Shown here: piece after piece, positions 8,641 to 31,236 of the stretch
How positions within the stretch are numbered: the first letter of the stretch is position 1
Layout: every line of letters starts with the position of its first letter
Assembly: GCA_000310025.1 (NCBI GenBank)
Contig: FN648764.1
Location: 9,110 to 42,990, forward strand
From: Ectocarpus siliculosus
Taxonomy: Eukaryota > Sar > Phaeophyceae > Ectocarpales > Ectocarpaceae
Length of the DNA stretch: 33,881 bases
Direction of reading: 5' to 3'
Made by a program: the position numbers and the translations under genes
The notes under the pieces: model-generated
What the model was told of the DNA's origin: nothing
Seen by the model: the letters and a program-made list of their open reading frames with translations, nothing else
Database searches by the model: none

Positions 8641-8703
8641 GACCATGCGACGAGGGTAATAGGGTATACCCTTACTGTTTTTGCCAGGGCGGGACCATAA
8701 ATT

Positions 8704-8945
8704 TCGTCCGCCATTCTATGTCACCACCCTGCCAAGGTCGGAGTAGCCCACCCTGCACATGGAGCAAGATTGTCACATGGTAACCATGTGTCTCGTCCGC
8801 CATTTTTTGTCACCACCCTGCCAAGGTCGGAGTAGCCCACCCTGCACATGGAGCAAGATGGTCACATGGTAACCATGTGTCTCGTCCGCCATTTTTTGTC
8901 ACCACCCTGCCAAGGTCGAAGTAGCCCACCCTGCCCATGGAGCAA
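8704..8945 (+). repeat. Tandem repeat of an 89-bp unit carrying a palindrome
   Basis: Units start at 8704, 8793 and 8882 (TCGTCCGCC at each start, exactly 89 bases apart); the third is partial. Units one and two are nearly identical. Each full unit ends with an odd-length perfect palindrome, CACATGGT-A-ACCATGTG (8774-8790 and 8863-8879). The third unit departs from the consensus before the palindrome. Confidence 0.9.
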
Positions 8946-9119
8946 AGTGGCTACCAGTGGACGCATCCACAGTCGGGTCTCTTGCTGATCAACCATCAGT
9001 AAGATCCTCCGTTCGGATCGTATCTTGGTCCTACTTTTGTATGTGCAACAACAATGGTTACAGCACTTCTACACCTGTCATCCACATAACACTTCTATGA
9101 TATGTGCATAATACCAGAT

Positions 9120-9704
9120 GGGAAATAGACACAAGTGGGTACACCCACCCCTTTCTCGGACAAAAGTGGGTACTCGAAAATCCAGCGCGCGCGCACTCCG
9201 TAGGCGACCCCCAAACGACTCATAACCCCATTCTGACACCTGGGCGACACAGCCAGGGACCATACAAAGCACGGGCATTGATGTTTTCCCACTATTAGGC
9301 ACATCTTTGGCCCTAATACCGCCGATGCGCGCAAGGCCTCACCAGAGTGCCCACTTGTGTCCAACATCGCGGTGGGTATACCCACCGGCGTCAACTAATT
9401 TTTTCATGTACCCACTTGTGTCTGTATTTTGACCCACTTTTGTCCAAAATGTACCCACTTTTGTCCTGCCACTTACGGACGGCGAAAATCGAACAGAAAT
9501 CGACCTCCGCATCACCGCACGGCAGAACATCGAATAGCCTCGGAACGTCTCAGAACCTCCCAAAACCGTATCCATGGCATCTTTCCTATCCATGGCTGCC
9601 GACTGCGGACCGACCACGAAAGGAAGAACATGTCAGAAACATGCCAGACCCCTTCGGAACCGGCACGGGAAGATACCAGGCACGGGGAGATACCCGCGGC
9701 AAGC
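9120..9704 (+). repeat. Left arm of the foldback element
   Basis: Inverted copy of 9896-10455. It carries motif copies such as ACAAAAGTGGGTA near 9163 and ACCCACTTTTGTCC near 9432 and 9453, and is about 25 bases longer than the right arm because of a short internal duplication plus small indels. Confidence 0.85.
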
Positions 9705-9895
9705 CTACTGCTGCCGTGACGAGTCGGTGTGCACTCGTCGTGGTGGTTGGTGTTTTTGTGTGTGTGTTGTTGCTGTTTGCGCGTGTTGTTGCTGTTTGCG
9801 CGTCTTTTTGTTCTGTATGCGCGACCCGTTGGTTGTGTTGTCCGTTGTGTGTTACGCATTTGTTTGTGGCGTGCCGTTAGTGCGCTACTTGCCGG

Positions 9896-10455
9896 GCTTG
9901 CCGCGGGTATCTCCCCGTGCCGGTTCCGAAGGGGTCTGGCATGTTTCTGGCATGTTCTTCCGTGGTCGGTCCGCAGTCGGCAGCCATGGATAGGAAAGAT
10001 GCCATGGATACGGTTTTGGGAGGTTCTGAGACGTTCCGAGGCTATTCGATGTTCTGCCGTGCGGTGACGTGGAGGTCGATTTCCGCTCGATTTTCGCCGT
10101 CCGTAAGTGGACAAAAGTGGGTACATTTTGGACAAAAGTGGGTCAAAATACAGACACAAGTGGGTACATGAAAAAATTAGTTGACGCCGGTGGGTATACC
10201 CACCGCGATGTTGGACACAAGTGGGCACTCTGGTGAGGCCTTGCGCGCATCGGCGGTATTAGGGCCAAAGATGTGCCTAAAAGTGGGGAAAAATCGATGC
10301 CCGTGCTGTGTATGGTCCCTGGCTGTGTCGCCCAGGTGTCAGAATGGGGTTATGAGTCGTTTGGGGGTCGCCTATGGAGTGCGCGCGCGCTGGATTTTCG
10401 AGTACCCACTTTTGTCCGAGAAAGGGGTGGGTATACCCACTTTTGTCTATTTCCC
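9896..10455 (-). repeat. Right arm of the foldback element
   Basis: Reverse complement of the left arm. Motif copies include GGACAAAAGTGGGTAC at 10109-10124 and another starting at 10130. The GTGGGTATACCCAC palindrome occurs twice, near 10191 and 10428. Confidence 0.85.
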
Positions 10456-10668
10456 TTTTTTTTTTCCCATTGGTGATGATCTCCGATTGTACATGCTGTA
10501 CCAGGTGTCGCGCCGGACAGCAAAGGTACATATCACGTTCGTACGATGACGAGCCAAGACCACAGTGGGCATCTTGGCGATTTCCTGAGCCAGATTGTGG
10601 ATAAATTTGTCGTTGTGGTACTCGTTGGTGTAGAGAACGGGATAAGAGTCGTTGCTCCGGCTGCGCAA
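10447..10668 (-). CDS. Coding-like fragment abutting the foldback element
   Basis: The minus-strand frame from about 10665 to 10466 reads like real protein with G/C-ending codons (SYPVLYTNEYHNDKFIHNLA, then KMPTVVLARHRTNVICTFAV). The frame has a TAG just upstream (about 10671) and no good ATG, so it is an exon or fragment, not a whole gene; an acceptor-like GTTGCGCAG lies at about 10666-10674. It becomes poly-lysine in the T-run and stops at the foldback edge. No continuation is evident left of 9120. No family is recognised. Confidence 0.4.
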   Translation of the reverse strand: MRSRSNDSYPVLYTNEYHNDKFIHNLAQEIAKMPTVVLARHRTNVICTFAVRRDTWYSMYNRRSSPMGKKKGK

Positions 10669-13119: not shown

Positions 13120-13552
13120 TGTTCGTGATAGTTGCTGCTGTGTGTGTCGACAGAGTAACGTAGCACAATATGATTGGACAGTTTGAATTGAGGGACTGTC
13201 GATGTTGCAGATCGCTGAGTAGCCACATATTATCAGAACAGCAAGGAACGTTCTGTAGGAATGTTCCTCGTGGATGGTACATTTCCCCGAGTGTGTTCTT
13301 TATGGATAGTGCATCAACCAGAGGATTCATGGTACGTTGTGAAGTACGTTGGCCCCTGTTGAGTCGTTGTGTTCCGATATTATTGTGTTCCGATATTGTG
13401 TTCTGCTTTCGTGCGTTGGTCGAGCGACGGGTGGTGCTGCGGTGCTGCGGTGCTCGCCCCACCCTTGCTCACTCCACCTTTTGACCTGTTCTCCTGGTCC
13501 AAGGTCTCATCAATACAACATCTTTTCCCCAGAAGCCACGACTTTACCAACA
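13120..13552 (+). repeat. 5' LTR of element A (433 bp)
   Basis: It begins TGTTCGTGAT and ends TTTACCAACA. Inside are two adjacent copies of a 16-bp unit around TGTGTTCCGATATT (about 13371-13402) and a GGTGCTGC micro-repeat near 13433. These lie in the likely promoter/R region, but their role is unknown. Confidence 0.95.
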
Positions 13553-13639
13553 CGCTATAGCGAACCAGTCGACTGCTGCTTGTCCCCTTGGACTGTACGT
13601 CAAGACTGAACGGAGGAAGATTGATCACCTTGCTTCGTG
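13553..13639 (+). other. Leader and presumed primer-binding region of element A
   Basis: The LTR is followed at once by CGCTATAGCG, a perfect 10-bp palindrome (13553-13562), then AACCAGTCGAC. This does not match the common copia primer site TGGTATCAGAGC. Priming by another tRNA or an internal tRNA fragment is possible and was not resolved. Confidence 0.5.
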
Positions 13640-16600
13640 ATGAGTGGGCCTGCTGGGGATCATGTGGATGACCCACCTCCGGGTGATTCGCAAGGTGTTA
13701 TTGGTGGTGAGAGATTGGATTCGATTGAGACACAGTTGTCCCAGCTCACGAGCATAATCAAGTCGCTTGTTGGGCAACGAGGTGATCAGGTGGAGTCCTC
13801 TGTTTCATTTGCTGCTGCGCCGGGAAGCGGCGGAACAGAGTATGCTGGTGTGCATCAATCGGATGTCACCGGCAGGACTGCGGGAGGTACGGACAGTAGT
13901 GCCCAAGGCCTTGGCATGTCCAGCGTGGGAGTTGGGAGTAGTAGTGTTGCAAACACAGGCTTGAACTCACACGATACTGCTGTTAACCGTTCCTCTGCTG
14001 GTGTCACAAGCTTTGGTTCGGTTGGGATGGGAAGTAGGGCTTTAGGTAGCCAGTCATTCATTCCAGGAATGGGTAGTGGGGCTTTCAGTAGTCAGTCTTC
14101 CATTCCGCCCGCACCTACTGCTTCGAGTAGGTGGTGGGAAAATGTCGCCAGTGGAACCACATTGATTCCTGGGGCCGGCATTACTGAACCAGGAGAAAAC
14201 TTGGGTAGGAGCCCTTTGAAAGTTCCCAAAGCTCCTGTGTTCGACGGATCGGACGTTGCATACCCGTCATGGTCACAAAACTTTCTGCTAAGTGCCCGAC
14301 ACAACAACTTGTTAGAAGCATTTACTTCTGAAGTGGAAATTCCGATCGCAAGCATTGAATTCGATTTGACCCCTTGGGTAGACAAAGGATACAGTGTGGG
14401 AGTGCTACGCCAGGCAGAGATGGGATGGTGGTTTTTGTTCGACTGTTTAAAGAACGACTCGCTTAAAACCATGGCTAGGCATGCAGGTTCCCCCAGCAAG
14501 GCATTCCAGGTGTTGAAGGATCATTTTCTCCCTTTGAGCCAGAGTCAGATTCGTGTGCAGGAGGACAAGCTGAAGTCATTGCGCATGCGTACAAACGAGA
14601 ACCCATCCACCTTCTTTGCATCCATGAGAGAGACGCTTGGTGTTTTGCAGATGCTTGAAGTCAAGAAGGAGGACAGGGAGGTGTGCACACTGATGCTAGA
14701 GGGTCTATCCCACGAATACAAGACTTTGCGTGAGACTCTTGTAGTGTTTTGCCCGAACGATCCTGCTTTCATCGAGACTAAAGTACGTGAGCGTTACCTA
14801 GACTTGCAAACACAGACTGGTACGAAGAAGCATAGTGTAGCTCTTGTGTCTAGGGCAGAGAGGAAGACTAGTCGAAAGTCGAACCACGCAAAGTCGAAGT
14901 CTCGCCCTGAATCTGATTCCTCCAAGAAGAAAAAGTTTCAGGGAACGTGTTTCAAGTGTGGGGAGAAAGGTCACATGAGGACGGACTGCCTGGCTCGTGT
15001 GATCGCTCATCCCTCCCAGACTGGGAAATCAGAGAACAAGGAGGATGAGACCGGTGAGAAGTTCGACTCGGAGTTGTCTGCGTTGTCTGATAGGTTTTCT
15101 GACTCGGAGTTGTCTGAGTTGTCTGATAGGTTCTCTGACTCGGAGTTGTCTGAGTTGTCAGAATTGCTGCTACTGCATCAACAAGAGGAATCCCGCCGCA
15201 AGTCGAGAAAACTGAATTCCGGTAGACTTAGAGAACTCGCCCAAGAACTCACCCCAGAAGTATTTGCTGATCAGATTAACAAGCACCTTGAGTGGCAAAA
15301 TAGTCATGTCGAAGATTGGTATGCGGACACCGGCACTGCTTTTCATATGACTGACCGTCTCTCTTGCATGAAGAATTTGAAGCCTTGCCACAAGAACGTA
15401 AATGGGATTGGTGGCGTGACTTGTGAGGTAGAATTTTCTGGAACCCTGGAGTTGGTGTTTGTGAATGCTGACAGCGAGTTTTCCGTAGAGCTGGAGAATG
15501 TATTGTACTCTCCCAACTTGGGATACAACCTCTTTTCTCCAAGCGCAGAGTTTGATGGTGAGTCATGGAATTTCCTTGGTGGTCCGGATGGTGTGATGAC
15601 TGCTTTCGATGAACATGTTACTTTTCAGAATTTCGATGGCATGCTCATTTCGACTGCGTATCGTCTAGAAAATAACTCTGTTGGTTCGGTGTTGGCTGCC
15701 CTCACTCCTTCAAACCCCAAGCATGAATCTAAGATGGATGTGAACGAGTTTCATAACATTTATGCTCATTCGCATGAGGGATTGCTTCGTACAACTGCAA
15801 AGCGACTAGGTATCGAGTTGACCGGTAAAATGCATGCTTGTACGGGATGTTCGATGTCGAAGGCGTTCAAGAAAGGGATTGCTCATGAAACAAAATGCAG
15901 ATCAGACAAAAAGTTGGGCAGAGTTTTTGTTGACCTGGGAGGGCGGAAGGACGTTGCGTCCGTAGGGGGTAAACATTACCCCATGATAGTGAAGGATGAT
16001 TTCACAAGACGCACATGGATGTATTTCCTGAAAAGTAAATCAGACGCTGCGAGTGCTTTCCGGAGTTTCCTTGCAAGTGTGCGTGCTGATGGTATCCCAT
16101 CATTGGTTGAGATTGTTAGATCTGACAATGGGGGGGAGTTTTTCGGAGGAGAATTTGCGTCCGTGTGCAACGAGCTCTTAATTAAGCAAGAGTTCACCCC
16201 GGCTTACAGTCCCCAATACAACGGTGTTGCAGAGCGTGGTTTGGGATTGATTGGGGCGGCGGCAATGGCTGCTCGTATTCAGGCAAAAGTTTTGTTTGGG
16301 CATGTGCAATTACCTAAGACTGATAGACTATGGGCTGAGGCGATGCATTGGGCTTGCGAAGCAATCAACCACACAGCTTGTTCCGCTAACCCCGACAGTA
16401 AGTCACCGTATGAGATGTGGCATGGTGAAGCTAGTCATGCTAGACCGTATCCGTTTTTGAAACCGGCGTACTGTAGGTGGCAGCGTCCGTCTAAGCTGCT
16501 ACCGAAAGGTGAGGCTTGCTTTTATGTCGGTCCTTCAAGAGACCACCCGCGTGACTGTCATAGAGTACTTACGAGGGCTGGAACTATTCAGGAAACGAGG

Positions 16601-18862
16601 AATGTGACATGGGAAGCGTTGCCGTCACAACTCCCTCCACTGCAACCGTCTCTCTTGCCGATAGAGGTTGCAGAGCAGGGAGGGGAGGAACGTGACGACG
16701 ATGTAGAAGCTGAGGTATGGCCGCTTTTAGGGAGAGGAGTTCCCCACATTCTTTTGCGACGTGATATCTCTGGTGGAACAATCAATGAGGTTGGCAGTGT
16801 TGATGCAGGCAGTGTAGGTCAACCCCCCTCTATGCCATCTTCGCCCGCGATTAACTCCCCTAGTAGCGCAGCTCCCCCTGTGTCTTCTCCAGCAGACGAG
16901 TTCTCCGATGAGGGAGGGCAGGGAGGGCCGGAGCCAGGGCAGACAGAATCGGCGGGTCCGGGAGGGCAGGAGGTAGAGTCGGAGAGTCAGGAAGGTTTGG
17001 ATGAAGAGTTGGTTGAGCCGGGAGGGCAGGAGGTACCATCGGAGTCATTCCCCCCTGCTACGCACGTACCATCCAATCGTCGTGCGCGGCATGAGCTTGC
17101 TAGTTACAACACTGCTATGAATGAGAATGTTGAAGTCAGAGAAGGCAGAACCCGTGCACAAACTCGGGCAGTAAATCAGCAGAGCGTACCCGGCCTCATG
17201 GCCACTCTAGGACCCATCTCCGCATCAGAAATAATATTGGCACTCTTAGTCGAACAGAGAGCATCTGATGCAATGGAATTGCCGAAAGTGCTTATTCAAG
17301 ATGTAGAGTCAGAACCGGGAAGCTATCAAGAAGCCCGCCAATCGAAGTATTCCACGATTTGGGACGAAGCCATGTCTGTAGAATTTGAAGGCTTGTTAAG
17401 AGCAGGAACGTTTGCGTTAGCAGTAAAGGCTCCGATAGGCTGTAACGTGATAGATGCTAGATGGGTCTACAAATGGAAAGCAGATGAAACAGGCAAGATA
17501 GTGAAGGCCAAGGCTAGGCTTGTAGCGAAGGGCTTCAAGCAGAAGCATGGTGTGGATTATCTTGAGACTTTCTCGCCTACTGCAAATGCTGCATCAATTC
17601 GTTTGTTGGTAGCATTGGCGTGCAAGTATGACTTGGAATTTCTTCACTTTGACATTGAGCAAGCGTTTGTTCAGTCGGAATTGGATCACGAGGTGTTCAT
17701 GAAGTTGCCTCCTGGCTGTGAGTCGATGACAGGAAAGGTAGTCCGTTTAGACAAGAGTTTGTATGGACTGAGACAGGCATCTAGAACATTTCACAAGAGA
17801 CTTGTGTCGGACCTGAAGAGGATTGGTTTCGAACAGTCTCTGTCTGACCCCTGTGTTCTTCGTTTCATTATGGGAGACGAGGTGTTGGGTATGATTGCGA
17901 TTCATGTGGATGACATTCTGTATGCAGGAATTGAGAGGCTTGCCAAGATGGTTGTGGAAGCGCTAGGTGACTCTCTCCCCACGAAGAATTTGGGCGAGGT
18001 CAAGTTCTTTCTTGGTTGCGCATTCGTTCGCGACCGCGAGGCTGGTACGATTGAGATGTCTCAAGAGAGTTACATCAGGAGTGTTCTCGAGAGATTCAAT
18101 GTTTGTCGCACCAGCTCGATCCCTGCTTCCCCTGCTAACGATTACAGGTCCGTGATGGAGGATGAGGGGGCAGGAGATGTGCCGTTCCGAGAGGTGGTGG
18201 GGAGCCTGATGTGGATCGCCAACCAGACAAGGCCCGACATCTCAAATGCTGTGCGGGCGGTGGCGAGGCACTCTCACGATCCAAAGAAGAGCCACTGGAA
18301 GGCGGCCCAGAAGATTCTGAATTATCTTCTGGAGACGGCACATCTAACTTTGAAGTGCAAGCAGGACACTATGGTAGACGTAGGCACGTTGGTGTACGTA
18401 GACGCAGACTTCGCCAGTAAGGCCACTGACCGTAGATCAGTTTCGGGAGCACTAGTTCTTGTAGCTGACTGTCTTGTTGCTTGGATTTCTAGGACGCAGA
18501 AATGTGTCACACTTTCAACAACTGAAGCAGAGTATGTTGCGATGGGTGACGGTGTGAAAGAGGCTCTGTTTGTCAATGGAATGCTCGAGTTCTTGAGGCC
18601 TAGTGAGAAGCTTGGTAAGATCCAGGTACGCGAGGATAACGAGGGTGCGATTGCACTTGCTGAGAATCCACTTAGTTCGTGTAACAGTAAGCACATTGAC
18701 GTGAGGCACCATTTCCTTAGGAATTTGACAGAAGAGGGAGTGTTGGAAATCAGTCATGTCGCTAGCGAAAGACAGCATGCGGACATCCTGACGAAGGCGC
18801 TGCCGAGAGATCTTTTTGAAGTTCATCGTAATTTTGCTCTAGGCTCGAGATCTGAGAAGTAG
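13640..18862 (+). CDS. Copia Gag-Pol polyprotein, intact (1740 aa)
   Basis: It encodes all retrotransposon proteins as one frame with no frameshift between gag and pol. ATG 13640 is the first ATG of the frame. In order: Gag; CCHC zinc knuckle CFKCGEKGHMRTDC (about 437-450); a 12-residue tandem repeat (about 476-508); aspartic protease DTG at 563-565; integrase with an HHCC region and catalytic D765, D829 and E865 (35 residues between the last two); a Pro/Ser/Gly-rich linker with repeated PGGQEV; reverse transcriptase with an HVDD box at 1422-1425, where YVDD is more usual; and RNase H with D1588/D1590, E1629/E1631 and D1666, ending in a HADILTKAL motif. The length suits copia polyproteins. 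Codons are noticeably more A/T-ending than in family B or the host exons. Confidence 0.95.
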   Translation: MSGPAGDHVDDPPPGDSQGVIGGERLDSIETQLSQLTSIIKSLVGQRGDQVESSVSFAAAPGSGGTEYAGVHQSDVTGRTAGGTDSSAQGLGMSSVGVGSSSVANTGLNSHDTAVNRSSAGVTSFGSVGMGSRALGSQSFIPGMGSGAFSSQSSIPPAPTASSRWWENVASGTTLIPGAGITEPGENLGRSPLKVPKAPVFDGSDVAYPSWSQNFLLSARHNNLLEAFTSEVEIPIASIEFDLTPWVDKGYSVGVLRQAEMGWWFLFDCLKNDSLKTMARHAGSPSKAFQVLKDHFLPLSQSQIRVQEDKLKSLRMRTNENPSTFFASMRETLGVLQMLEVKKEDREVCTLMLEGLSHEYKTLRETLVVFCPNDPAFIETKVRERYLDLQTQTGTKKHSVALVSRAERKTSRKSNHAKSKSRPESDSSKKKKFQGTCFKCGEKGHMRTDCLARVIAHPSQTGKSENKEDETGEKFDSELSALSDRFSDSELSELSDRFSDSELSELSELLLLHQQEESRRKSRKLNSGRLRELAQELTPEVFADQINKHLEWQNSHVEDWYADTGTAFHMTDRLSCMKNLKPCHKNVNGIGGVTCEVEFSGTLELVFVNADSEFSVELENVLYSPNLGYNLFSPSAEFDGESWNFLGGPDGVMTAFDEHVTFQNFDGMLISTAYRLENNSVGSVLAALTPSNPKHESKMDVNEFHNIYAHSHEGLLRTTAKRLGIELTGKMHACTGCSMSKAFKKGIAHETKCRSDKKLGRVFVDLGGRKDVASVGGKHYPMIVKDDFTRRTWMYFLKSKSDAASAFRSFLASVRADGIPSLVEIVRSDNGGEFFGGEFASVCNELLIKQEFTPAYSPQYNGVAERGLGLIGAAAMAARIQAKVLFGHVQLPKTDRLWAEAMHWACEAINHTACSANPDSKSPYEMWHGEASHARPYPFLKPAYCRWQRPSKLLPKGEACFYVGPSRDHPRDCHRVLTRAGTIQETRNVTWEALPSQLPPLQPSLLPIEVAEQGGEERDDDVEAEVWPLLGRGVPHILLRRDISGGTINEVGSVDAGSVGQPPSMPSSPAINSPSSAAPPVSSPADEFSDEGGQGGPEPGQTESAGPGGQEVESESQEGLDEELVEPGGQEVPSESFPPATHVPSNRRARHELASYNTAMNENVEVREGRTRAQTRAVNQQSVPGLMATLGPISASEIILALLVEQRASDAMELPKVLIQDVESEPGSYQEARQSKYSTIWDEAMSVEFEGLLRAGTFALAVKAPIGCNVIDARWVYKWKADETGKIVKAKARLVAKGFKQKHGVDYLETFSPTANAASIRLLVALACKYDLEFLHFDIEQAFVQSELDHEVFMKLPPGCESMTGKVVRLDKSLYGLRQASRTFHKRLVSDLKRIGFEQSLSDPCVLRFIMGDEVLGMIAIHVDDILYAGIERLAKMVVEALGDSLPTKNLGEVKFFLGCAFVRDREAGTIEMSQESYIRSVLERFNVCRTSSIPASPANDYRSVMEDEGAGDVPFREVVGSLMWIANQTRPDISNAVRAVARHSHDPKKSHWKAAQKILNYLLETAHLTLKCKQDTMVDVGTLVYVDADFASKATDRRSVSGALVLVADCLVAWISRTQKCVTLSTTEAEYVAMGDGVKEALFVNGMLEFLRPSEKLGKIQVREDNEGAIALAENPLSSCNSKHIDVRHHFLRNLTEEGVLEISHVASERQHADILTKALPRDLFEVHRNFALGSRSEK
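15065..15165 (+). repeat. In-frame 36-bp tandem repeat inside Gag-Pol A
   Basis: Units at 15065-15100 and 15101-15136, and a partial third from 15137, code for DSELSELSDRFS-type 12-residue repeats between the zinc knuckle and the protease. Being a multiple of three, the copy number can change without breaking the frame. Confidence 0.9.
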
Positions 18863-18936
18863 AGGTCTGAGTCGTGTTTTATTTTGGTTTGTTGTTTTTC
18901 TGTTGTATATTTGATCTGGTCGAAGACAACAGCCCC

Positions 18937-18945
18937 AAGGGAGGG
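18937..18945 (+). other. Polypurine tract of element A
   Basis: AAGGGAGGG lies immediately before the 3' LTR, where plus-strand DNA synthesis is primed in LTR elements. Confidence 0.85.
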
Positions 18946-19378
18946 TGTTCGTGATAGTTGCTGCTGTGTGTGTCGACAGAGTAACGTAGCACAATATGAT
19001 TGGACAGTTTGAATTGAGGGACTGTCGATGTTGCAGATCGCTGAGTAGCCACATATTATCAGAACAGCAAGGAACGTTCTGTAGGAATGTTCCTCGTGGA
19101 TGGTACATTTCCCCGAGTGTGTTCTTTATGGATAGTGCATCAACCAGAGGATTCATGGTACGTTGTGAAGTACGTTGGCCCCTGTTGAGTCGTTGTGTTC
19201 CGATATTATTGTGTTCCGATATTGTGTTCTGCTTTCGTGCGTTGGTCGAGCGACGGGTGGTGCTGCGGTGCTGCGGTGCTCGCCCCACCCTTGCTCACTC
19301 CACCTTTTGACCTGTTCTCCTGGTCCAAGGTCTCATCAATACAACATCTTTTCCCCAGAAGCCACGACTTTACCAACA
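18946..19378 (+). repeat. 3' LTR of element A (433 bp)
   Basis: Same length and, by eye, same sequence as 13120-13552. It is followed by the second AAAGC target copy. Confidence 0.95.
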
Positions 19379-21194: not shown

Positions 21195-21448
21195 TGTTTG
21201 TCGGCCGTACTCCGCGTACTTATCGGGTATTGTTTGTGTAGTGTATTAACTTCAGACGGTGAGGCAACGCCCGTACCCAGGGCGCTGTCGTGCTCAGAGA
21301 GGAGGAGTGGCAGCAGGGCTGCTGCACACAACAAAAGGGGGCCCCGGTGCATCATCACCGTACCCCTACCTAAAAGGTTCTACACCATCTGCGTCACACT
21401 TGTACGTACGGCTAACATATCCAAACCATGTCCGTAGACCCACGAACA
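21195..21448 (-). repeat. 3' LTR of family B copy 2 (254 bp)
   Basis: TG...CA ends, identical by eye to 27135-27388 and 1769-2022. Confidence 0.95.
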
Positions 21449-21456
21449 CCCTCCCT
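21449..21456 (-). other. Polypurine tract of family B copy 2
   Basis: CCCTCCCT on the plus strand (AGGGAGGG on the element's strand) touches the 3' LTR. It matches the tract of element A at seven consecutive bases (GGGAGGG plus A). Confidence 0.8.
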
Positions 21457-21758
21457 GGTTCTTCACGCAAGTGACTAACCATCAGTGGGGCAAAAACACC
21501 CCGGATACATCAATAAAATGCCAATACGGTGGTCGAGGGGAAACCCGGCGCCCGGGCAAAACCCCTCGAAAATAAATCCCATCCAACACAAACCATTGCT
21601 ATCACAGCGGATCACAACGGCCGCACTTATCAGGAAGGCCAAGGCGAAGACAAGAATGCGAGGCAAGCCTCCTACTCCTGCCATTGGGACACAGCCCGCG
21701 ACAGTAATGCATCTTTCCCCGCATGGTATACATGACCTTCCCCAAGCGCTAGAAAATC

Positions 21759-22454
21759 CTACAGAAGCTCCGGCAAATTCATCAGCTTTTTCCGGTGGTA
21801 CTGCAGGTTGCTCTTGCTAAGAGCCTTGGTGAGCATGTCTGCATGTTGCTCCGACGTCGACACAAACTTGATCGAGATGTCACCCGACCTAAACAATCCA
21901 CGAATGAAGTGGTACCGCACGTCGATGTGCTTGCTACGCGCTGAGCTAAGGGGGTTCTGCACCAAAGCCATGGCCCCCTGATTGTCCTCAAGGACCTGAA
22001 TGCTACCGCCGCTGGTCTCTGGGGCAATAAACGAAAGCACTGCACGCACAAACAAAGCTTCTTTCACACCCTCTCCGGCAGCAATGTACTCTGCCTCCGT
22101 AGACGACAAAGATACGATAGCTTGCGTCTTGCTACCGTGGCTGATGACGGTTCCTCCAACCGTTGTTGCCAGCCCTGACACCGAACGTCTATCCTCAGCG
22201 TCGGCGTAGCTAGCGTCCACGTACACCGCCAGCCCCAGCCCCGATCCCCGTTTGTAGGTGATCCCGAGGTCCCTCGTCTCTTTGAGGTAGGCGAGGATCT
22301 TCCGTATCGCCTTCCAGTGCCTCTCGGCAGGGGCGTGGGCGTGGCGCGCTACCGCGCGCACAGCGAACGAGATGTCCGGGCGCGAGAACGTCGACACCCA
22401 CATCATGCTGCCGATGGCCTCCCTCACCGGCCACCTCCCCTCCACTTTCGTCAT
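21759..22454 (-). pseudogene. Copia pol, RNase H part (third frame)
   Basis: This is the last part of pol in copy 2. It joins the reverse transcriptase tail (REAIGSMMWVSTFSRPDIS) to RNase H: catalytic YVDA and STEAEY blocks, EDNQGA, and a HADMLTKAL C-terminal motif. It ends at a stop at 21759. The internal Met at 22454 is not a real start; the segment is separated from the preceding pol frame by a frame change at about 22455-22500. A non-coding stretch of roughly 300 bases follows before the polypurine tract. Confidence 0.85.
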
Positions 22455-24135
22455 CTCGCTTCGGTCCTAGGTCAGCACCAGGGGAAGCAGGGATGGGGGA
22501 GGTCGATTGCACATCAAAGCGATTCACGATGCTGTCAATGTACGCGGTTTGGGAGATTCTAAGGGTCCCAGCCTCTAGGTCTCTCTCAACGGCACACCCG
22601 TCGAACCACACACACTCTCCAAGGTCTTTAGTGGGGAATGCCTTGTTGAGGGAAGCGAGCAACTCCTTGCAATCATCATCAGACCCAGCCACCAGAATGT
22701 CATCCACATAAATCACGATAATCATCACCACGACACCGTCTTTCATCTTGCGGAAGACGCACGGGTCCGCCTTGCACTGCTCGAACCCGTTTTCTACAAG
22801 CGTGTCGGCAGCGTGGTACCCCCACTGCCTGCCGCTCTGCTTCAAGCCGTAAATAGCACGCTCAGCCTTCACAACTTTGTGGGATTTTTCCCCGCACCCC
22901 GCGGGGAGCCTCAAGAACACATCCTCGTCTAACTTAGCGTGTGTAAACGCCTGCTTGACATCCCAGTGGTTGAGTTTCAATGATTTCTCATTGGCTACCG
23001 CAAGCATCAGTTTAATGGATGCGGATGATGGGCAAGGGGAGGATGAGTAGAAGTAGTCCACATTCGGAATTTGCGAAAAACCCCAAGCGACCAGACGCGC
23101 TTTGAACTTCTCGATTTTCCCCTCCTTGTTCGTCTTCCAAGTAAAACGCCACTTAGAACTCACAGGTCTACGCCCCTCTGGCGTACCGTCTACGAATGAA
23201 AACGTTCCCGTGTCCAAGTGTCCATCGAACTCTTCCCTCATGGCCTGTTCCCACCCCTCTCTGTACACAGACTTGGCCACGCCGGCTACGGTCATGGGGG
23301 GGGATTCAACGTCACTCGGACGCTTGCCTATGGGGGATTCTGTACTCAGCTCGGTCGACGCCAGGGCCCTCACGAAGGCGTCTGGAGAGTTGAGCACGAG
23401 GTCCTCCGCTCCCAGCAGGAAGTCCTCTGCCTCTTGGCGCGCGATGTTGGCCTCCTCCGCGCGCTCGCACAGCAGCGCTTGCACCGCCCTCGCCTCTAGC
23501 CCTTCCACCACGTCGACCACACACGCGAGCATCCAGTGGGTGTACTCCTCCGTGCTGGTGATGGGCAGGGTAGGCAGCCCGGCCGCCGATGCATGGCGGG
23601 CGAGCAGACCTTCGGCACTCGTTGACGACTCGTACCTCGTGTTCCGGCGAGGGTTCTCCCTGAGTCGGCGGCTGGTGAGTTCGGCCGGCTCGCCAAAGCG
23701 GGCGAGCCTCCGTTCCTCGGGCCCGCGGAGCACCGGAATATCCGTGTCGCTGCCGCTGTCGCTGCCGCCACCGCTGCTGCTGCTGCTGCCGCCGCCACCG
23801 CGGCTGCTGCTGCTGCTGCTGCTGCTGCGGCGGTCGTCCTCGCCGCCGCCCACATCGGCCATCCCGGTCGACGTGGTAGATGGGGCGACGCTCGCGCCCT
23901 CCCTGCTCGAGGGGGCGCCATCGCCAGCGTCGCCCGCGCCCGACTCCTGGGGCGCGGCCGGCGGCGCCGCCGGCGCATCGCGCGCGGGCGGCTCCGCGGG
24001 CCCCGGGTTTGCCGTCGTGTCAAGGTGGAAACCTCCATCCTCAGGTTCTCCCTCCGCCCTCCCTCCACTCGTGGCATGACGCACCCCCTCCGCCCTCGTG
24101 CTCCCCAGTCGTGAGCTCCTCGTCCTCCTCTGCAA
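22455..24135 (-). pseudogene. Copia pol, linker and reverse transcriptase part (second frame)
   Basis: The first third is a low-complexity Ser/Gly/Pro-rich linker read from GCT/GCC-type triplet runs (about 23756-23832). Then come the copia reverse transcriptase blocks: KARLVAWGFSQ, NHWDVKQAFTHAKLDEDVFL, IYGLKQSGRQW, and the catalytic YVDD at 22699-22710. The frame has no ATG at its left edge and begins inside the previous frame, so it depends on a frame change somewhere in 24040-24135, where C-runs such as 24084-24088 are present. The frame physically stays open to 22210, but beyond about 22455 it is out of register with RNase H. Confidence 0.85.
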
Positions 24136-25756
24136 TGGGAGGCAGCGGCTGGGGGTGCGCGGTCGGGGCGGCGGGCACAGATTGCCAGGTGAAGTTGCGA
24201 GTGGTGATCGCTTGGCGTTTTTCGTTCAGGATGCGCACGCAATCACGGTTTGTGTTGATTCCAGGGCCGAGGTAAAAACACTTTTTTGCTTTCGGCTCTG
24301 ACTTGTGCGTGCGCTTGACCTTGTATACGGCGGGTTTGAGGAACGGGTACGTCGCCTCTGGGGGAGGTGGGTGCCCGTGCCACATTTCGTACGGCGATTT
24401 CTTGTCCGGGTTGGATGTGGTGGAGGTGCAGTTCAGGGCGTTGCATGCCCAAGCTGTGGCTTCGGCCCAAAGGGAGGGGTAGCTTGGTGCTTCGGGGTAA
24501 AGAATCGGCGCTTGTATGCGGGCGGCTAGTGCTGCATCCTTTATCAGTCCCAGTGCTCTCTCAGCTACACCGTTGTATTCTGGGCTGTATGCGGGGGTGA
24601 ACTCCTGCTTGATGCAATACTTGCGGCACAGCTTTCCGAATTCTCCCTCGAAAAACTCTCCTCCGTTGTCAGACCGCACGACCATGACCTCGGATGGGGC
24701 TCCGTCTGCTCTGTTTTCCGCTAGGTATCTCTCGAATGCCTCTGCAGCGTCTGACTTGTTTTTCAAGAAGTAGACGCGGTTCCACCTCGTGCAGTCATCC
24801 CTTACAATGAGAGTGTACCACTTCCCCCCCAAGCTCTGCACCCTTGCCTTCCCACTCAAATCCACGAACACTCTCTGCAGTTTCTTAACTGCTCGGGTTG
24901 ACGTCCTGTTGGGGATGGGCTTGGATAGCCCCTTTGCCGTCGAGCACCCCATGCACTCCCGGAGCTGACCCACCAGCGTCACCCCTTGCTGCTTCGCCGT
25001 GTTCTTCAGCAGCACCTCGTGGGAGTGGCCGTGCGCGCAGTGGAAGTCGTTGATGTCAACGGGGGTGCGGTTCGCTTTCGCGTTACCAGGAGCAATTATG
25101 GCACAGGCTAGTTCCCTACCCGAGTCTATGCGGTGACCAGTCTGAACGAACAGGTCCCCCCATAGAGGGAAGTACACCGACTCCCCCCCACCAACGAACA
25201 CCTCCAACTCACGCTCGTCTGCGGCTAAGCGGCGCTTGGTATGCTTCAAAAGGGCTGTGAGGGACACGAGGTTGTAATTCAGCTCCGGCACATGAGCGAC
25301 CCGTTTCAACAGCAGGTCTGTGGTCCCAACGCGAGAACCGATGGACACCCTCACGTCGCCGTAGCCTACTATGGCGAAGGCTTGCTTCCCTGCGGCGACA
25401 CTCAAACGTCGATCGCACTCATGGTAGTTTTCGAACGCGTTAGCGCTCGGGAACATGTGGTTGGTTGCGCCGGTATCGGCCACAAACCTTTCCTGCCTGG
25501 CCTGCTCTACACCCCCTCGATCAACGACTCTGTTCCACTCGCCTGTGAAGTCACGGACCACTAGCGCCTCCTCTGCCACGTCCAGTGCGGTGGCGTCCAA
25601 GACCGGCAGCTCCACCGCGAGCACCGCCTGCTCGGACGAGCACTTGCTCTTGTCGTGTCCGTAGCCCAGGCATTTCTCGCATCGCAGGGGCTCCGGCTTG
25701 GTACAGGCGGCCGCCTGGTGACCCTTCTCTCCGCACCGGAAGCAGCGGCCGTGCAT
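24041..25756 (-). pseudogene. Copia pol, zinc knuckle-protease-integrase part (first frame)
   Basis: From Met 25756 it contains two CCHC knuckles (CFRCGEKGHQAAAC and CEKCLGYGHDKSKC), aspartic protease DTG at residues 94-96, the integrase HHCC region (HSHE...CMGC), and the catalytic triad D299, D363 and E399, the last two separated by 35 residues. All catalytic residues are present. Its TGA at 24041 comes just after the integrase C-terminus, inside the linker, and is premature compared with element A. In copy 1 this frame is joined to gag; here the extra C upstream breaks the join. Confidence 0.88.
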
Positions 25757-25757
25757 G

Positions 25758-27086
25758 CTACCTGCACCGCCGCCGCCTCCGCCGCTGTTGCCACCACCAC
25801 CGCCCTTGCGACCACCCCCTTTCCCCTTCTGGCTGCCACCGCCGCCGCCGCCCTTGCTGTGGCCGCCGCTGCTGCGGCCGGGCGCTCCGCCCCTGTTGCC
25901 ACCGTCGCTCGCGAGGAAAACATGCTCCGCCTTCCGCTGGCCCTTCGTGGCCCTCCTCCCCCTCCGGGAGGCTCGCGTGCACGGTACTGACTACCCTGAT
26001 TATCTCGCCCCGGTCCAGGTTTGTAGCCGTCTCCAGCAAGAATTTGGCTTGTTGGTACTCGGGTGGAAGGGCATCGACAAAGTGTGCGAGAACAAAGGGT
26101 GTGTCAGCGTTGAGCCCTTTTTCCCGCAGTCGTGAGTACAGCAGCTCGAGCGTGTATAGATGCTCGACAGGGTTGCTGTTGCTGTGTGCGGGGATCGTGA
26201 ATCGAAACATCTTCTTCATGAGGGCTTGTTTCGAGCCCTGCGACTCTGGGTTGTGTACTTTGTCGAGCTCCGCAAGGATCTCCTTTGCGGTCTCGCATTT
26301 ATTCACGATTGCCTTGTCGGCTTCTCGGACGATGGCTGTAGTCACAAAGTGGAACGCCTGGAGGCCCCTCTGAACCTCATCACTTGTGTAGCCCAAGCTA
26401 TACAGCTCCGAGCTAGGCCTGTTTGGGTCACCGACGGGTGCGTGCTTCTCGGCGTTGCCGATAAGCTGCCCGTCCAAGCCTACGGTTTTTGCGGCTTGAA
26501 TAAGTGCCTTCCTCCACGAGTCGTACCCGTGGCCGCGACTCTCCCCTTCGAGACGCGGTGCATTTACCGTAACACGTTTTTGGCTACTACTGCTGTACCC
26601 ATAAAAAAATGCTCCGGCCCCTCGAATTGCGGTTTGCTCACCTTGGGGGTTTAACCCCCTCGCTTCCCCGCGGTCCGGTCCTACGCCCGGGCTCATTCCG
26701 GCTGGCCCCACAGGATTCGCTCCCGATCTACCTGCCCAGCCAGTCGTCACTCTCGCTGGAACCCCAGGACTCGCTCCCGGTATGTTGTCCCAGCTGCTTT
26801 CCCGCGGGTGATTTCGCCCATCACGGGCCGTTTCCCGGGAAAACGCCCCGCCGCCCCCAGGCGGCAGAGCCTCTCTCTGGCTTGGGACGGCAGCACCGCC
26901 GCCCCTACTGGCATCGCCCGCCACGGCGTCACCAGGCTCCTTCCTCTTCAACTCCATCACTACGCTCATCAGCTGCGATAACTGGCCCTCCAGCCTCGCA
27001 ATCGCCGGATCCTCGGCGTGTTGCTGTTGCGTGGCTGAGGTCTCTTCCCCCAGCCCTGCGACGGAACCGCTGTTCGACGCAGACAT
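25758..27086 (-). pseudogene. Copia Gag, frameshifted at its C-terminus
   Basis: True ATG at 27086-27084, 48 bases inside the 5' LTR. Gag should assemble the particle. The reading frame matches copy 1 for about 370 residues, including a copia Gag core (for example ELYSLGYTSDEVQRGLQAFH and FVDALPPEYQQAKFLLETAT). At 25958-25962 there are five C where copy 1 has four. After that the frame reads an Arg/Gln-rich tail and stops at 25758 instead of the glycine-rich linker leading to the zinc knuckles. The true product is thus truncated Gag without its nucleic-acid-binding knuckles. Confidence 0.9.
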
Positions 27087-27134
27087 GACCCGATGCGGCT
27101 ATCCCTCGAGGGACAATCAATCTAAACTCTAGAG
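27087..27134 (-). other. Leader and presumed primer-binding region of family B
   Basis: On the element strand the LTR end ...ACAAACA is followed by CTCTAGAG, a perfect palindrome (27127-27134), then TTTAGATTGATTG. As in element A, this is not the usual initiator-methionine tRNA site. Confidence 0.5.
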
Positions 27135-27388
27135 TGTTTGTCGGCCGTACTCCGCGTACTTATCGGGTATTGTTTGTGTAGTGTATTAACTTCAGACGGT
27201 GAGGCAACGCCCGTACCCAGGGCGCTGTCGTGCTCAGAGAGGAGGAGTGGCAGCAGGGCTGCTGCACACAACAAAAGGGGGCCCCGGTGCATCATCACCG
27301 TACCCCTACCTAAAAGGTTCTACACCATCTGCGTCACACTTGTACGTACGGCTAACATATCCAAACCATGTCCGTAGACCCACGAACA
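27135..27388 (-). repeat. 5' LTR of family B copy 2 (254 bp)
   Basis: Identical by eye to the 3' LTR at 21195-21448. Followed by AATAC, the right target duplication. Confidence 0.95.
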
Positions 27389-30151: not shown

Positions 30152-30209
30152 ACGCGAAGTGATTTTTTTTTTTTAATCCTGGGTGGTCGTTGTGGTTTTT
30201 GTCTGCGCG

Positions 30210-30726
30210 CGAGCGCTCCCCGTACATATCAACAGTTTATGTGAACGGGGGCAGACATGCGGACGAGCTGAACGTTCTTTAACCATTTGTACTTGTCCTT
30301 GAATTTATTGTACAAACAACAAGCCGTGCACCGACCCTTGTCCGCTGTTTTTTTTGGGGGGGGGGGGTTAGGTATGATGGTCCTGTCGCGGACCCTCATT
30401 TGGGGCGGTGCCAAGGTCGACCATTGATGCTTTTCTTCAAGCGCAAACGTGGTCTCCGATGCAATTGGTGTGGGGGGCATCGTGCTGCACAGAAAGGGCG
30501 CGACCCACGCTGCAAGTAGCGGTGTACTTCGACGTACGTTTGTTCGCAAGCACCTGCTTAAAATGAGCGACACTCGTTTGGAAGGGTACCATGTATCTTG
30601 AGTATTTTTTCAAAATCAGACTCATTCGACGCGACACCGGTAAAAACAAAAAAAAACGTCGATCGATACCGTGCGTCTTCAAGTAGATTCACGCCTCAAG
30701 CGGGGTCTCAGGACGTCGACTGCTAA
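30210..30726 (+). repeat. Tandem duplication, unit 1 (517 bp)
   Basis: Head-to-tail copy of 30727-31236, from CGAGCGCTCCCCGTACATAT to GTCGACTGCTAA. Differences are mainly homopolymer lengths (T8/G12 versus T9/G9), one CGAT unit and scattered substitutions. A minus-strand frame of about 100 codons (30229-30573) exists in both units but is not recognised. Confidence 0.92.
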
Positions 30727-31236
30727 CGAGCGCTCCCCGTACATATCAGCAGTTTATGTGAAAGGGGGCAGACATGCGGACGAGCTGAACGTTCTTTAAC
30801 CATTTGTACTTGTCCTTGAATTTATTGTACAAACAACAAGCCGTGCACCGACCCTGTCCGCTGTTTTTTTTTTGGGGGGGGGGTTAGGTATGATGGCCCT
30901 GTCGCGGACTCTCATTTGGGGCGGTGCCAAGGTCGACCATTGATGCTTTTCTTCAAGCGCAAATGTGGTCTCTGATGCAATTGGTGTGGGGGGCATCGTG
31001 CTGCACAGAAAGGGCGCGACCCACGCTGCAAGTAGCGGTGTACTTCGACGTACATTTGTTCGCAAGCACCTGCTTAAAATGAGCGACACTCGTTTGGAAG
31101 GGTACCATGTATCTTGAGTATTTTTTTCAAAATCAGACTCATTCGACGCGACACGGGTAAAAAAAAAAAACGTCGATACCGTACGTCTTCAAGTAGATTC
31201 ACGCCTCAAGCGGGGTCTCAGGACGTCGACTGCTAA
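30727..31236 (+). repeat. Tandem duplication, unit 2 (510 bp)
   Basis: Directly follows unit 1. Its right end (31189-31236) is the last 15 codons and stop of the minus-strand gene at 31189-31986, so the unit is the 3' end of that gene plus downstream DNA. Confidence 0.92.

Follow-up and report, generated by a model that had tools for sequence, protein, structure and literature searches.

A foldback transposon family in the brown alga Ectocarpus siliculosus, with one copy whose target duplications are exchanged in the assembly

The locus studied here raises the question of what kind of element is built as a large, gene-less palindrome filled with copies of one short motif, and why it is flanked by two unrelated sequences instead of by a target duplication. 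It lies in a stretch of 33,881 nucleotides (the window; C223:9110-42990), which was analysed as a whole and against its host assembly (189 Mb, 492 contigs). The 1336-bp foldback that spans window positions 9120-10455 is one copy of a real, multi-copy, non-autonomous, gene-less family of foldback DNA transposons. The family is new but its kind is known from animals and plants, Tm1 and Galileo being examples, and it is set apart from both by their descriptions. It is quite probable that the window copy is a non-autonomous foldback that a Mutator-like (MULE) transposase mobilised in trans, with arms that were homogenised and with target duplications that were exchanged by a reciprocal crossover.

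Architecture, dispersal and target duplications

Near-perfect inverted repeats account for 558 and 550 of the 1336 bp and contain internal short repeats (12 motif copies), as is characteristic of foldback structure (Table 1). The inverted repeats consist of three blocks, namely 9120-9466/10109-10455 (98% identity), 9469-9622/9957-10110 (97%) and 9622-9677/9906-9961 (96%). When 9120-9677 and the reverse complement of 9906-10455 are aligned as a whole, 536 of the 558 columns are identical and eight are gap columns. An earlier reading of this DNA, made from the sequence only, had described inverted arms around a spacer; the arm pair is real and its outer coordinates, 9120 and 10455, are as that reading gave them, but its arms of about 570 bp and spacer of 191 bp have to be corrected to the lengths in Table 1. 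The absence of coding capacity was confirmed as well, since the four mechanical open reading frames (122-238 amino acids) had no Pfam match at E-values up to 0.1.

Table 1. Features of the foldback and its immediate flanks, in window coordinates.
Feature	Position	Strand	Remarks
Half of target duplication X, ATACCAGAT	9111..9119	+	Other half flanks the C4:4007494-4008825 copy
Left arm	9120..9677	+	About 558 bp; starts GGGAAATAGACACAAGTGGGT; from inverted-repeat search and arm alignment
Terminal motif pair	9128..9170	+	GACAMAAGTGGG starts 9128 (+) and 9159 (+), 31 bp apart; mirror pair 10405-10447
Inner motif cluster	9350..9465	-	GACAMAAGTGGG starts 9350, 9411, 9433 and 9454 (all -); steps 61, 22 and 21 bp; mirror 10110-10225
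GTGGGTATACCCAC palindrome	9372..9385	.	Exact also at 10190 and 10427; with one mismatch at 9135
Spacer	9678..9905	.	228 bp; GT-rich low complexity in part
Right arm	9906..10455	-	About 550 bp; mirrors the left arm; finishes ACTTTTGTCTATTTCCC
Half of target duplication Y, T10 run	10456..10465	+	Inside a dispersed repeat; other half flanks the C4:4007494-4008825 copy

The element is dispersed over the host genome. A search with the left arm gave at least 41 matches (best 40 of 185 candidates scored) and a search with the spacer at least 68, 28 of which were short arm-end pieces (best 40 of 70 candidates scored); among the matches listed, only two other places, both on contig C4, carried the spacer at 99-100% identity. 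Furthermore, the terminus pattern GGGAAATAGACAMAAGTGGG, with up to two mismatches, matched 77 times in forward and 80 times in reverse orientation (157 matches in all; reversed control, 0 and 0). The 140 distinct termini that were used for pairing, taken from the listed terminus matches, formed 47 inward pairs spanning 1216-2124 bp (median 1330 bp) and left 46 termini without a partner. Copies of the family are about 1.33 kb long, hold no recognised gene and have the ends GGGAAATRGACAMAAGTGGG; a shorter relative (L064) measures 596 bp between its ends, and L048 is an 89-bp hairpin with the same kind of ends. Viral contigs contained no exact terminus match. The earlier expectation of other genomic copies was thus borne out by the arm, spacer and terminus searches, and arms present only at this locus, a finding that would have spoken against that reading, were not encountered in the assembly, which holds many copies.

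Comparison of the 9 bp outside each element end revealed a perfect 9-bp target duplication in 16 of the 27 copies scored, and agreement at eight or more of the nine positions in 20 of them, whereas 702 control pairings of flanks from different copies gave none at 9/9 and five at 8/9 or better. No exact duplication of 7, 8, 10, 11 or 12 bp was found among these 27 copies. In the 16 perfect duplications, A+T reaches 89%, T being abundant at the start and A at the end. The copies scored were 24 of the 27 fetched places together with L044, L049 and L053; those left out were L016, L025 and L035 (no recognised end pair), L039 (no recognised second end), and L036, L037 and L063 (nested insertions). 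L053, a shorter relative with mis-paired ends, was counted as a miss, and its exclusion changes the fractions to 16/26 and 20/26. Their excess over the control makes these 9-bp duplications the trace of DNA transposon integration; dispersed copies with target duplications, as expected of the foldback class, uphold the earlier interpretation as a foldback transposable element. The window copy itself lacks a target duplication (ATACCAGAT on the left, TTTTTTTTT on the right), and so do its twin, L053, L010, L018 and L020, while L028 reaches 7/9. Hence, the absence of a duplication noted before holds for the window copy and fails for the family.

Several other repeats surround the foldback in the window. 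A copia-type LTR element (13120-19245, forward strand) contains a 1741-amino-acid open frame with integrase and RVT_2 domains, gag being below the cut-off, and its flanking 300-bp direct repeats are 100% identical, indicating a probably recent insertion. The best named match of its protein (13637-18862) is from Ectocarpus sp. CCAP 1310/34 (64% over 19% of the query), and an unnamed protein matches at 66% over 66% of the query. A second copia element (21195-27388, reverse strand) has three frames between 254-bp repeats that are identical, and stretches of it are found again at 1-2022. In addition, a tandem array of an 89-bp unit (8694-8960; 2.7 copies) adjoins, on the left, the dispersed repeat next to the foldback, and positions 30203-31236 form a tandem duplication (period about 516 bp, identity 91-96%).

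The motif array and the homogenisation of the arms

Twelve copies of GACAMAAGTGGG, all exact and six per arm, are present in the foldback, in agreement with the more than ten copies in both orientations reported earlier; the GTGGGTATACCCAC palindromes reported with them were also recovered (three exact and one with a mismatch). In the left arm, the motif occurs at offsets 9 and 40 (forward) and 231, 292, 314 and 335 (reverse), and the right arm mirrors these positions. Six copies in one arm compare with a mean of 0.014 under a Markov-1 model (500 simulations, maximum 1, up to one mismatch allowed), and the remaining 32.5 kb of the window holds a single match, with one mismatch. The inner cluster was also found as a tandem repeat with period 21. 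Offsets and spacings are near-constant across 26 full-length copies, all of which are close relatives; 24 of them have the terminal pair at offsets 9 and 40, the exceptions being L010 (12 and 43) and L044 (no match at 40). The 31-bp spacing approaches three helical turns and those of 22 and 21 bp approach two, and these spacings are found again in the shorter relatives L053 and L064. Judged from its sequence, the array is likely to represent putative transposase binding sites.

It is quite possible, albeit short of probable, that the array is instead a by-product of foldback growth, in which slippage or hairpin-templated copying produced short direct and inverted repeats that arm homogenisation then preserved. 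Other foldback TIRs, as described for known families, also hold tandem arrays (PMC3169594), and the motif sites are position-wise no better conserved than random blocks, with an identity of 0.727 versus 0.708 in 16 arms of relatives (6228/20000 reaching the observed value) and of 0.638 versus 0.609 in the ten most divergent arms (5017/20000). Against it, a test with a 30-bp tolerance on 22 arms of relatives gave a motif retention of 0.48 versus 0.31 for background 12-mers (172/20000 resamplings reaching the observed value), a weakly positive result that is inflated by similar motifs nearby. The approximation of whole helical turns by the spacings, also in L053 and L064, argues in the same direction. 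The sequence-only reading had further held that ordinary TIR elements need no such array, a generalisation that leaves out of account the several transposase binding sites in the long TIRs of Galileo (PMC3688188) and the repeat arrays of Tm1 (PMC3169594).

The arms of the 26 full-length copies are on average 98.4% identical within a copy versus 95.9% between copies, indicating that one arm has probably been re-copied from the other. In the tree, the two arms form a pair in 17 of the copies and do not in nine; of the 52 arms, 28 have their sister as the strictly nearest arm, and there are two ties. These values suggest that the arms of a copy are homogenised, probably through gene conversion or through repair on a hairpin template, possibly in connection with transposition. 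Contrary to a simple rule of homogenisation, the window trio L009, L010 and L011 shows 99.5-100% identity between the left arm of one copy and the right arm of another, and 97.5% between the two arms within each copy. These three, none of which has a target duplication, seem to be copies of a single unit with two arms, in either orientation. The third member of this subfamily, L010 (C4:4042786-4044126), is flanked by TTTGTGAAA and TAATATAAA, without duplication, and the region C4 3.98-4.05 Mb contains three foldback copies.

Exchanged insertion scars

Among the matches listed, the closest relative of the window copy is the one at C4:4007494-4008825; five substitutions and one 4-bp indel separate the two copies, the spacers of which are 100% identical. 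When read on the opposite strand, this twin has a T-run on its left and ATACCAGAT on its right, and the ATACCAGAT left of the window copy and the left flank of the twin are reverse complements at 9/9 positions. The two ATACCAGAT flanks, joined into a 28-base pattern, matched the genome once, with three mismatches, at C4:4090548 (reversed control, 0). This locus (L074) aligns with the left flank of the twin over 1193 columns (93%) and with the left flank of the window copy over 37 bp (89%), the two alignments overlapping on it by exactly 9 bp. By these alignments, L074 is a paralogous empty site and shows that both ATACCAGAT flanks once formed one sequence. Similarly, the other pair of flanks is uninterrupted in two empty copies of the dispersed repeat (L071 and L073); a third copy (L072) differs within the T-run. 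Since site Y is a T-run, a 9-bp duplication is not measurable there.

In this assembly, one half of either insertion site is found at the other element, and it is this exchange of flanks with the near-twin that leaves the window copy without a target duplication. An exchange of target duplications between two copies is also described for Galileo. Two copies, moved in trans by a MULE transposase that would recognise their ends and probably also the helically spaced GACAMAAGTGGG sites, would have inserted, the one into X and the other into Y. A reciprocal crossover between them would then have produced the junctions X-Y and Y-X and a rearranged chromosome, be it by inversion or by translocation, C223 having no chromosome assignment.

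The exchanged scars stem either from such reciprocal recombination between two copies or from an assembly mis-join, recombination being the most likely. A mis-join, with the assembler having crossed between two near-identical foldback copies of a genome that in reality contains X-element-X and Y-element-Y, is possible as C223 is a contig of only 43 kb; it would leave an identical reciprocal pattern, there are few differences between the copies (spacer 100%), and an assembly artefact had already been named as possible for the inverted arm. It is nevertheless unlikely, as the element is only 1.3 kb long and contigs of several megabases in the assembly suggest reads that exceed it, and as the copies are not quite the same (five substitutions and the 4-bp indel). 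Unrecombined parental copies of the window subfamily were not seen, only three places reaching 99% among the matches listed. No reciprocal flank partner was noticed for L010, L018 or L020 among the copies fetched either, inner motifs making up most of the matches listed.

A bolder and less probable proposal may be put forward tentatively, namely that the palindromic transposon acts as a recombination hub, the arms of which are repeatedly homogenised, the reciprocal crossovers of which rearrange chromosomes as in Galileo, and the helically spaced array of which would hold many transposase molecules.

The mobilising transposase and relation to known foldback systems

MULE elements make target duplications of 8-11 bp, mostly 9 bp, those of the P superfamily make 8-bp duplications, and CACTA (En/Spm) elements have CACTA ends and a 3-bp duplication. 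The present family has the ends GGGAAATAGAC and makes 9 bp, which differs from CACTA elements and also from the 7 to 8 bp of P and Galileo elements. Its exact 9-bp duplication (16 copies) and long TIRs point to the Mutator-like superfamily, as in Tm1, for which 9 bp is described as a common duplication size (PMC3169594). From duplication size and long TIRs alone, the mover is most likely a Mutator-like transposase. A transposase from another superfamily (P/Galileo-like, Merlin, hAT or CACTA), the resemblance to MULEs being only apparent, is rather improbable. Such an origin would fit the lack of a MULE partner at the loci read, and foldbacks are described from the P superfamily too, e.g. Galileo (PMC2775673, PMC3688188). 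However, exactly 9 bp were duplicated in 16 copies and none had an exact duplication of another length between 7 and 12 bp, Galileo being described as making 7 bp (PMC2775673); the ends are not CACTA; and no Merlin-type match (PF12762, DDE_Tnp_IS1595) occurs in the genome, as represented by this one assembly.

The MULE transposase domain has 45 matches in the genome, about 28 of which are near-identical in score. Ten MULE loci of 4.6-8 kb each were read (L038, L057-L062, L075, L092 and L093), and they showed neither paired foldback ends nor a motif array, only isolated mismatched matches; of the 35 other matches, 27 are near-identical in score to one of the loci read and eight fall outside the abundant family. 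Both L038 and L075 have TIRs of their own, unlike the foldback ends. Similarly, 34 single-end termini (1.5 or 0.5 kb read for each, with masked stretches in some, including L046, L048 and L051) contained no recognised transposase. Of these, 28 match the window element over at least 200 bp, some at only 66-75%, and six (L040, L043, L045, L047, L048 and L082) match just about 50-130 bp at the end. Nine frames of L040, L043, L045, L047 and L082 and one of L065 contained no transposase when scanned, the yield being ankyrin repeats beside L040 and one sub-threshold match in L043.

Three long spans between foldback ends were considered as autonomous partners, and all three hold nested insertions. 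The 9.4-kb span on C4 (L036) was rejected, as it is a foldback with a nested DDE_1 element of about 8 kb, presumably of the pogo type; the latter (L036:90-8115) has a DDE_1 transposase frame, TACAGATGGCGCC ends and a C2H2 finger below the cut-off, and is inserted about 20 bp from the end of the foldback copy. The 4.3-kb span on C210 (L063) was rejected as a foldback with a LINE-like reverse transcriptase frame inside, identified from the frame sequence, and two frames of the 2.8-kb insert in L037 had no Pfam match. The autonomous relative with the same ends proposed earlier was hence not found among the ten MULE loci, the three long spans and the 34 single-end termini. The transposase may have been lost from the strain, be unassembled, lie at an unread locus or have diverged ends. 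The abundant MULE family (C6:226366 and some 27 further places) scores almost uniformly and has, in most copies, a 233-amino-acid frame; the one copy read has TIRs with doubled subterminal repeats (GGGGCGCGAATATTTGC...), and the family may have been recently active.

A palindromic small-RNA source, or another host element in place of a transposon, is scarcely credible: a transcript would indeed fold into the near-perfect long hairpin foreseen earlier (predicted minimum free energy -1232.9 kcal/mol, shuffled controls not being available at such length), but the copies are dispersed with 9-bp target duplications, an Rfam scan of the window at gathering score gave no match, and any silencing role that the element has once transcribed would be secondary.

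The literature found on brown-algal foldback transposons, or on Mutator elements with TIRs, does not describe this family in the text available, and none of the papers listed seems to deal with a foldback transposon. Tm1, a Mutator/Foldback family of root-knot nematodes with TIRs composed of arrays of 13-15-bp repeats (PMC3169594), resembles it, as described, in its foldback-like TIRs of short repeats, target duplications that are mostly of 9 bp, a predominance of non-autonomous, MITE-like copies, and TIR pairs that are not quite identical within a copy (93% on average in Tm1). It differs in that one Tm1 copy encodes a MULE transposase whereas no autonomous copy was found here, in its tandem repeats of 13-15 bp as opposed to another motif sequence in both orientations, in its asymmetric ends, and in its targets, for which that account gives no clear consensus, those here being A/T-rich. 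By description only, the FARE elements of Arabidopsis share the foldback structure and include a member bearing a transposase, of the MULE type (PMC3169594).

Galileo, of the P superfamily in Drosophila, is likewise described with long, internally repetitive TIRs (PMC2775673, PMC3688188), which contain several sites for the THAP domain of the transposase (PMC3688188), where the present family has a motif array of putative sites. It differs in its 7-bp duplications with consensus GTAGTAC, compared with 9 bp here (PMC2775673), and in encoding a P-type transposase, no known transposase being available for the present family. Its exchange sits at an inversion, whereas the rearrangement here may be an inversion or a translocation. 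At that inversion, the exchanged duplications and chimeric sequence of Galileo copies were read as ectopic recombination (PMC2775673), and such exchanged duplications, which the window copy shares with Galileo, are the unusual part of this brown-algal foldback family with exact 9-bp target duplications. The exchanged scars, together with paralogous empty sites for both, offer a ready test of chromosome rearrangement by foldback elements outside animals, in a family in which arm homogenisation is measurable copy by copy.
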